A DNA stretch of 64,000 nucleotides, taken from the NCBI RefSeq assembly GCF_013376475.1, contig NZ_CP045508.1:3074001-3138000 (forward strand), read 5' to 3'. Below are positions 18,070 through 61,774 of this stretch, piece by piece. The DNA comes from Desulfolutivibrio sulfoxidireducens. GTDB taxonomy: Bacteria > Desulfobacterota > Desulfovibrionia > Desulfovibrionales > Desulfovibrionaceae. The notes under the pieces are model-generated. The model saw only the letters and a program-made list of their open reading frames with translations, did not search any database and was not told the origin of the DNA. How positions within the stretch are numbered: position 1 is the first letter of the stretch; every line of letters begins with the position of its first letter. Both the position numbers and the translations under genes were made by a program.

Positions 18070-18330
18070 CCGCCCCCCCCGGGGGTCGCCGCCCCGGACC
18101 CCGCCCGGGGCCGCCGCCCCGGCCCCCCCCGGGGCCGCCGCCCCGGACCCCCCGGGGCCGCCGCCCCGGACCCCGCCCGGGGGAAATCATTCCCCCCGGA
18201 CCCCCCGACTCCGGTCGCGGCCTCCCGGCGCGACGCGCCGGAAGGCCGCGACCGGAAATCAAGGGGCACGGAGACAATCATGCCCTCCGGGAGGAGTTCA
18301 GGCCATGCGAGACTGATTTCACCGGCGGTG
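18070..18330 (-). repeat. GC-rich 3'-end hairpin element, copy 1
   Basis: Directly behind the stop at 18069 there are several near-copies of GGGGCCGCCGCCCCGGACCC, then an AATCATTCCCCCCGGACC block. Next comes a long palindrome (arms 18211-18232 and 18234-18255, 21 of 22 positions paired, centre CGGCGCGACGCGCCG). A tail block at 18256-18325 contains GGAGACAATCATGCCCTCC and GACTGATTTCACC. Related elements lie at 58340-58560 and 61133-61236. All follow a gene in the same relative orientation. Confidence 0.75.
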
Positions 18331-56690: not shown

Positions 56691-56800
56691 GGGCACGTCC
56701 GGAGGTTTCTTGTACGTGACGGTGGGGCGGCGGGGATTGCGAACCGCCACGAATAGCACGGGAGGGTGTCAGATAATGCCCCGGGGACACTTTGGCAAGT

Positions 56801-56870
56801 GCGACGCGAAGAGCAAGCGCGACGCGAAGAGCAAGCGCGACGCGAAGAGCAAGCGCGACGCGAAGAGCGG
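56801..56870 (+). repeat. 18-base tandem repeat, nearly four units
   Basis: The unit GCGACGCGAAGAGCAAGC occurs at 56801, 56819 and 56837 and in truncated form at 56855-56869, identical between units. It lies between the divergent lactate dehydrogenase and exported-protein genes. Eighteen bases preserve frame, but no supported gene crosses it. Confidence 0.8.
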
Positions 56871-58228: not shown

Positions 58229-58450
58229 AGCGTGGGGGCGCCGCCCCCACTCCCCCGGCAGGGGCCTCAGGCCCCTGCACCCCTGACTCGCCGTGGGCGA
58301 TCGGACCGCGCTTCGCGCCGGCCCGATCGCCCACGGCGAAATCAGTCCCGCATGGCCCGATACTCTTCCCGGAGGGCAGGATTGCCTCCGTACACGCCGC
58401 ATTCCCGTGGCTTTTTGCCGGCGCGACGCGCCGGCAAAAAGCCACGGAAT
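58229..58450. repeat. Hairpin-rich 3'-end element, copy 2, non-tandem part
   Basis: Behind the exported-protein gene come two perfect hairpins (stem GTGGGGGC/GCCCCCAC and stem GCAGGGGCC/GGCCCCTGC), then a 14-bp-arm palindrome near 58297-58338. A block GAAATCAGTCCCGCATGGCC...GGAGGGCA follows, matching the tail of copy 1. Last is a long palindrome (arms 58401-58425 and 58427-58450, 24 bp with one bulge) with the same CGGCGCGACGCGCCG centre as copy 1 but different arms. Confidence 0.75.
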
Positions 58451-59237: not shown

Positions 59238-59278
59238 ATCGCTTCCTTAAAAAAGATGGCCGTTTTTAAGGAAGCGAT
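59238..59278. terminator. Perfect 16-bp inverted repeat between rplS and rnhB
   Basis: ATCGCTTCCTTAAAAA (59238-59253) and TTTTTAAGGAAGCGAT (59263-59278) pair perfectly around nine bases. The T-run is inside the stem rather than behind it, so it may be an attenuator, a processing site or an atypical terminator before rnhB. Confidence 0.5.
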
Positions 59279-61132: not shown

Positions 61133-61236
61133 TTCCCCCGGCCGCGCCGCCGGCGGCGGGGCCGGGGGAAAGAGGGAGTCCGGGGGGAATCATTCCCCCC
61201 GGGCGGGGTCCGGGGCGGCGGCCCCGGGGATATACA
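61133..61236 (+). repeat. GC-rich 3'-end hairpin element, copy 3
   Basis: It contains a palindrome with arms 61133-61151 and 61152-61170 (18 of 19 paired), then GAGTCCGGGGGGAATCATTC and a CCGGGCGGGGTCCGGGGCGG block to 61236. The order is the same as copy 1 read in reverse. Its right part is the coding end of rimM, so the repeat supplies the last dozen codons. Confidence 0.75.
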
Positions 61237-61774
61237 CCTCCACCAGTCCCGGGGGCGGGGTGGCGATGATGGTGGCGGTCTCCAGGTCGATGGAGGCGAT
61301 GGTGTGGGGGTTGGCGGGCAGAAGGATTTCCTTTCCGGACTCGTGGATGATGCGCCAGACTTCCTGGCCGGGCATATCGAGGATGTCGTCGAGGACGCCG
61401 AGGACGGGGTGCGGGGTATCCGGGGCCAGCACCCGGCAGCCGATAAGCTGACGGCGGTAGTATTCCCCCGGAGGAGGCGGCGGCAGGTCGCCTTCCGGGA
61501 TGGACAGCACAAATCCGCGCAAGGTTTCGACGGCGTCGCGGTCATCGATGCCGGAGAGGGTCACAAGCAGGTTCCCGGCGTGGCTGCGCCGGGCCGTAAC
61601 GGTGCGCGTGACGCAATTTCCGGGTCGGCTTTGCGGCGGGGTCAGCCGCAGGGCGCGGCCATTTTGGAAAACGGAAGGGGAGTCGGCGAAGGATCTGACG
61701 ACGATCTCCCCTCTCACGCCGTGGGGGCGAAGGATTTCGCCCACGACCACGTGGCGGTCCGGGTTGTTTTTCAT
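61190..61774 (-). CDS. rimM: Ribosome maturation factor RimM
   Basis: RimM helps 30S head assembly by binding S19. The 194-residue protein has VVVGEILRPHGVRGEI at the N-terminus, the FADSP region, and the PRC-barrel half with YYRRQLIGCRV and the distal GKEILLPANP. The final residues IPGAAAPDPARGE are written by the GC-rich repeat copy 3 and replace the usual family end, so the true end looks shifted by insertion of the element. It lies between the KH protein and trmD. Confidence 0.93.
   Translation of the reverse strand: MKNNPDRHVVVGEILRPHGVRGEIVVRSFADSPSVFQNGRALRLTPPQSRPGNCVTRTVTARRSHAGNLLVTLSGIDDRDAVETLRGFVLSIPEGDLPPPPPGEYYRRQLIGCRVLAPDTPHPVLGVLDDILDMPGQEVWRIIHESGKEILLPANPHTIASIDLETATIIATPPPGLVEVYIPGAAAPDPARGE

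Follow-up and report, generated by a model that had tools for sequence, protein, structure and literature searches.

The window, the whole 64-kb stretch of DNA that was analysed, holds three composite hairpin elements (Table 1). Copy 2 lies between convergent genes and copy 3 lies at the end of rimM. Reading of the sequence together with a hairpin scan revealed the long palindromes and the shared layout that a first-pass annotation had described at all three places. The arm pairing reported there (21/22, 24 and 18/19) was reproduced for copy 1; for copies 2 and 3 our counts are lower, and in copy 2 the pairing reaches 24 only across a bulge. The tail reported as common to copies 1 and 2 was found in both (ACGGAGnCAATCnTGCCCTCCGGGAnGAGT..GGCCATGCGnGACTGATTTC). 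The second long palindrome of copy 2, H6, and further hairpins had been missed, and inspection of the window sequence revealed that copy 2 is without H2.

Five strong hairpins were detected in the window, four of them within these elements (the H3 or H3-like palindromes of the three copies and H6 of copy 2), and no comparable hairpins were detected in six dinucleotide shuffles of the window. The short G+C-rich hairpins H1 and H8 could easily arise at 64% G+C, as expected if the elements had come about by chance or through assembly error in a GC-rich genome. Such an origin is refuted by the shuffles and by the recurrence of the layout in genomes from several genera that were assembled independently, and we give it practically no weight. 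Two other features of the window were recorded. A near-perfect 16-bp hairpin with a T/A-rich stem, unlike the repeat family, is located at 59238-59278 in the gap that separates rnhB from the following gene (probably rplS), and an 18-bp tandem repeat (GCAAGCGCGACGCGAAGA, 4.1 copies, 56795-56868) is located close to the start of the ORF that lies upstream of copy 2.

Table 1. Features of the three window copies, and IS481-type insertions elsewhere in the same genome
Element	Feature	Position	Strand	Basis or remark
Copy 1	H1, tandem GC hairpin units (GGGGCCGCCGCCCCGGA type)	18070..18176	+	TRF array 18070-18183, period ~23-25
Copy 1	H2, CCGGGGGAAATCATTCCCCCCGG	18177..18199	+	nearly invariant among 19 aligned copies
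Copy 1	H3, long palindrome with variable arms, 21/22 paired, loop GAC	18210..18256	+	hairpin scan; covariance-model match 90.5 bits
Copy 1	H4, hairpin CGGAGACAATCATGCCCTCCG	18269..18289	+	common to copy 2, L005, L011 and others
Copy 1	conserved tail ending ..GGCCATGCGAGACTGATTTC	18290..18320	+	sequence, blastn and copy comparison
Copy 2	H1, 3.7 identical 28-bp units CCGGGGCTGCCGCCCCGGATATGCCGAA	58458..58561	-	TRF, 100% matches
Copy 2	H3, palindrome, 20/20 paired (contiguous), loop GTC	58405..58447	-	hairpin scan
Copy 2	H4, hairpin	58370..58390	-	sequence and copy comparison
Copy 2	conserved tail	58341..58369	-	sequence and copy comparison
Copy 2	H6, second long palindrome	58288..58339	-	hairpin scan
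Copy 2	H7, hairpin GCAGGGGCCTGAGGCCCCTGC	58258..58278	-	sequence and copy comparison
Copy 2	H8, hairpin GTGGGGGCGGCGCCCCCAC	58232..58250	-	sequence and copy comparison
Copy 3	H1 unit within the final rimM codons	61210..61227	-	sequence and rimM comparison
Copy 3	H2, holds the rimM stop codon	61180..61202	-	sequence and rimM comparison
Copy 3	H3-like palindrome, 16/17 paired	61133..61170	-	hairpin scan; covariance-model match 50.2 bits
IS481-type copies	five intact copies inserted in H2, and one end of an interrupted copy in H2 (G000)	L254 3871.9k, L255 489.5k, L256 4119.5k, L263 2246.5k, L266 1456.6k, L269 1706.3k

Architecture, spread and placement of the family

A blastn search with copy 1 found ~40 distinct places in the genome that contains the window (G000; 4,155,851 bp, one contig). 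Further copies were also found by the covariance-model search that the first-pass annotation had proposed: a model of H2-H3, built from 19 copies, detected ~60 distinct copies in the 4.16-Mb chromosome. Within the genus, the model matched 61 places in the sister species (G002) and 17 in a second genome (G001). Matches were present in 15 of 35 Desulfovibrionaceae genomes and in one of 24 genomes from other families of the order. Copies in other genera (e.g. L144, L159, L151 and L162) have the same grammar with quite different sequence. One copy in G001 (L147, G001:C111 position 14-114) lies at the very end of a draft contig, which suggests that the repeats break short-read assemblies and that the copy number in G001 is underestimated.

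Comparison of copies revealed a fixed order of modules. In the left part, H1n (CCGGGGCTGCCGCCCCGG) is followed by ACCCCGCC, H2 (GGGGGGAATCATTCCCCCC), GGACCCCC(T/C)GA and H3; 3' of H3 come AATCAAGGGG and H4 (ACGGAGGCAATCATGTCCTCCG), and then right module A or B. H1 consists of tandem GGGGC-TGCC-GCCCC hairpins, H2 is a palindrome that is nearly invariant in the 19 aligned copies, and H3 is a long palindrome with 14-33-bp arms, a ~3-nt loop and a tip that is mostly GCGC-NNN-GCGC. Module A comprises H5, the second long palindrome H6, H7 (GCAGGGGCCTGAGGCCCCTGC) and H8 (GGGGGCGGCGCCCCC). Module B comprises GCGAAGCGC, followed by a T-rich hairpin (CCAGGGGGGAAACTTTTTTCAAAAAGTTTCCCCCCTGG) and CCGCCGGAGGC. 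Where a gene starts downstream of two type-B copies in the sense orientation (L121 and L228), the CCGCCGGAGGC end of module B occupies the place expected of a Shine-Dalgarno sequence (GGAGG shortly before the ATG).

The window copies are best read as members of one mosaic intergenic repeat family of the Desulfovibrionaceae, which is BIME-like but fails the tests for tagged REPs and for association with a RAYT. Several palindromic modules are joined in a composite that is intergenic and present in many copies. The GTAG- and CGTC-tagged REP/BIME families (PMC3733652) are likewise numerous, palindromic, intergenic, mosaic and close to gene 3' ends, as would be expected if the present repeat were a conventional family of this kind mobilised by a RAYT transposase. 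In contrast to these, the repeat has no tag tetranucleotide: neither GTAG nor CGTC was found in the flanks of H2 and H3, which read ACCCC..GGACCCCC(T)GA and AAATCAAGGGG in the aligned copies. Its H3 stems are near-perfect and far longer than the short, family-conserved stems of tagged REPs (arms mostly 17-31 bp, not 8-9), their sequence differs in almost every copy, and five to eight different hairpins follow each other in a fixed order. GTAG REPs and REPINs are accompanied by a RAYT (Y1_Tnp) gene in the genome, which the repeats typically flank. Y1_Tnp (PF01797) had no match in G002 or G001, both of which are rich in copies, and two partial matches at one place in G000. Dispersal by a RAYT or IS200-type enzyme was therefore rejected, and we consider a conventional RAYT-mobilised family very improbable. 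REPINs (PMC3116915) are likewise short intergenic repeats that contain palindromes, disperse and persist in lineages, but each is a pair of REP sequences that depends on a RAYT, unlike the present repeat. No element family was matched in Rfam at gathering thresholds, a tRNA being the sole match in the window. The repeat had no match in plasmid and phage collections, and a plasmid or phage origin was rejected on these grounds. In the literature searched on Desulfovibrio palindromic or REP repeats, no earlier description of the family was found. The repeats fill whole intergenic spaces in an environmentally important family of sulfate reducers.

Genes were called with a codon-usage gene caller, and 59 copies had both neighbours called. 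These copies comprise 26 in tandem-antisense, 18 in tandem-sense, 14 in convergent and one in divergent position, and 58 of the 59 adjoin a gene 3' end. The description of the elements as lying directly behind a gene thus holds genome-wide; in copy 3, H1 and H2 overlap the last codons of rimM rather than follow the gene. Copies in divergent gaps are clearly depleted compared to a small background sample (among the window's 32 gaps that are 80 bp or longer, 7 are divergent; P=8e-6), and placement, which the first-pass annotation had proposed to test, is non-random and at gene 3' ends. The three window copies do share the orientation relative to the upstream gene that had been claimed for them, but a fixed orientation was rejected for the genome as a whole, where antisense tandem copies outnumber sense ones. 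No clear replichore bias of element orientation was seen when match positions were compared by eye, the origin not being located. Published REPs have a similar placement near gene 3' ends, mostly in tandem and convergent gaps (PMC3733652), and the placement of perfect inverted repeats across bacteria is similar too (PMC13155455).

This placement bears on whether the palindromes act as RNA, that is, as 3'-UTR hairpins (terminators or blocks to 3'-5' exonucleases) shaped by ordinary compensatory evolution. The nearly constant contact with gene 3' ends and the depletion between divergent genes would suit such a role, and for the REPs and perfect inverted repeats that share the placement, transcription or a part in termination has been proposed (PMC3733652, PMC13155455). 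Module B also keeps its TTCA-loop hairpin in one sense, and G+C-rich hairpins directly after stop codons resemble intrinsic terminators. Unlike intrinsic terminators, however, H3 has no U-tract behind it (AAATCAAGGGG or a similar sequence comes next), and copies occur in both orientations, those in antisense being the larger group in tandem gaps. The absence of an Rfam match also argues against an RNA role. At L144, an ordinary T-tailed terminator stands beside the element.

Joint change of the H3 arms

The two arms of H3 change together far above chance, as had been claimed, and they change fast. In the 19 aligned copies, 20 pairs had changed on both sides compared to 12.0 in shuffles. The covariation score was 0.255 compared to 0.092, none of 500 shuffles scored as high, and the signal collapsed when the register was slid by one column. 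Between nearest-neighbour arms, 64 differences were compensated and 17 were not, and even nearest pairs that differ at a single position showed co-change. Compensatory changes are thus in excess, although neither these counts nor the mismatch counts below are independent, since the copies are related. Among 91 H3 hairpins from two species, 65 were perfect; the 2,062 paired positions contained 33 mismatches, and the 91 copies had 89 distinct left arms.

When one arm undergoes a transition, one strand gains a G·T mismatch and its complement an A·C mismatch, and selection for an RNA helix should keep far more G·U than A·C. The hairpin finder used here penalises G·T and A·C equally. H3 hairpins of the two species had 11 G·T and 10 A·C mismatches, second palindromes seven and three, and copies from other genera five and six. 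For all long hairpins together, the counts were 23 G·U and 19 A·C (binomial P=0.0002 against an assumed 4:1 ratio). Since G·U and A·C are equally frequent, the pairing carries no RNA-strand signature. This pattern argues against upkeep of the pairing via RNA and fits a DNA hairpin or arm copying, and we consider it unlikely that the palindromes are maintained as RNA. The first-pass annotation had put the covariation down to selection on a fold or to arm copying: an RNA fold is disfavoured, copying between arms or conversion between copies would fit better, and selection on a DNA hairpin is a less probable alternative. Compensatory base changes are standard evidence for functional RNA structure, and strong covariation combined with a mismatch pattern that opposes RNA selection is a warning against inferring RNA function from covariation.

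In the nearest pairs, the loops were the same in five cases, inverted in six and otherwise different in 18, suggesting that loop inversion, which would be the strongest mark of template switching, is present but not dominant. The copies at 3268838 (TTT) and 3294016 (AAA) have reverse-complemented loops and identical left arms, and L144 and L159 have a reversed loop (GAC/GTC) between nearly unchanged arms. A modest strand bias was observed, with 31 loops of the GTC/TTC type and 11 of the GAC/GAA type.

The strand symmetry of the mismatches, and near-perfect arms of free sequence, would also be expected if H3 were selected as DNA, with a structure-specific protein (a transposase, nucleoid protein, gyrase or recombinase) recognising a hairpin or cruciform shape for which only arm complementarity matters. 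The presence or absence of modules between species, described below, points the same way. However, no candidate enzyme tracks the element, Y1_Tnp (RAYT/IS200-type) included, and the arms are still perfect at loci that predate the split of the two species, where mobility alone would no longer demand this. We regard strong selection on the DNA hairpin, with rapid compensation, as a rather doubtful explanation.

Evolution at shared loci and upkeep of the palindromes

Genes flanking shared copies in G002 are ~75-90% identical to those in G000, mostly 80-88%. In 15 orthologous pairs from these two genomes, H2 had a mean identity of 94% and the H3 arms 68%, compared to arm identities of 61% for non-orthologues and 82% for the best within-genome paralogue. 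Orthologous arms therefore usually resemble each other less than paralogous arms within one genome do. The residual similarity of orthologous arms (Wilcoxon P=0.002) indicates that not all arms were overwritten. One G002 arm family (TCGTTGGCGTTTCCGG..) is absent among the H3 arms of G000 and occurs at loci where G000 has other arms, including the copy 1 orthologue (L219:13509), which was placed by its conserved upstream gene. Together, the divergence of orthologous arms and this G002-specific family suggest that arms were often overwritten as well as mutated. In the alignable arms of 4100223/L228 and 2183756/L210, the differences read were compensated. The best explanation is that H2 is constrained by sequence and H3 only by self-complementarity.

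Modules also differ in presence between the species. Of eight loci without a previously known G002 partner, two had the element. At L253 and L249, G002 keeps only the T-hairpin module and the left module is missing, at L253 exactly after the stop codon; at four further loci, the left module is absent or H3 is lacking in G002. The copy between rimM and trmD is absent in G002 and G001, where rimM abuts trmD directly. In the window, the final residues of RimM (61190-61774, minus strand) and its stop codon are encoded by H1/H2 of the repeat, and RimM ends differently in the two other genomes. Gain and loss were polarised, by parsimony, at rimM only. The region downstream of rnhB in G002 contains H1 units together with an H3 whose arms differ from those in G000. 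At L247, L248 and L252 of G002, a short hairpin (e.g. CCAAAGGGCGAAGCCCTTTGG) precedes a CCGCCGGAGGC-like sequence at gene ends where G000 has the T-rich hairpin module, and gene-end hairpins appear to have been swapped at these three loci.

We think it somewhat probable that the family reflects dispersal together with homogenisation of the H3 arms at the level of DNA, either through template switching or through conversion. A left module (the H1 tandem hairpins, H2 and H3) is joined to one of two right modules, and the family would disperse and survive mainly where it is least harmful, behind stop codons. In H3, and in H6, a template switch inside the hairpin as the DNA is replicated (quasipalindrome correction) would carry a change in one arm over to the other, or the whole hairpin would be overwritten from another copy; either route would keep these palindromes near-perfect. 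A putative benefit to the host, such as protection of mRNA 3' ends or help in termination, would be secondary. No dispersal enzyme was found for the repeat.

Template switching is an established route to paired arm changes (PMC7202029, PMC8794818). Published cases concern E. coli reporter sites as well as rRNA and microRNA genes; in the literature searched, no case in a dispersed bacterial repeat was found. Template switching predicts that a single event changes both arms, that pairing is perfect with no G·U intermediates, and that the loop is occasionally inverted. The excess of compensated over uncompensated differences is as template switching predicts, and conversion between copies would leave an identical covariation pattern. 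Quasipalindrome correction is a mutational process, not an element family, and in the present repeat we infer it instead of observing it directly. More tentatively, the family may be a structure-maintained DNA repeat whose arms are rewritten in single hairpin-templated replication events in dozens of parallel copies per genome, and also a new class of mobile hairpin with a putative structure-guided dispersal enzyme; we consider this possible but unlikely. If true, it would represent compensatory evolution without selection on any RNA. The dozens of parallel natural copies per genome allow the rate and mechanism of joint arm change to be measured.

IS481-type insertions into H2

H2 is also a site of insertion of a 1.4-kb IS481-type element with the domains rve_3 and LZ_Tnp_IS481 (NF033577 at 208 bits, just below the cut-off of 224). 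G000 has six intact copies that are 99-100% identical. Five of the six lie within H2, each in a separate element of the repeat family but always at an identical point, and both orientations occur; an interrupted seventh copy has one end in H2 (Table 1). The junction reads GGGGGGAATCAT[TCCC] IS [TCCC]CCCGG, with an apparent TCCC target duplication (one varies). The repeated insertion at the same point marks H2 as a preferred landing site. The sixth intact copy (L260, G000:3394963-3396353) lies between repeats of a CRISPR-like array (GTGTTCCCCGCGCTCGCGGGGATGATCC), and its insertion point is a G-run/C-run sequence resembling H2.
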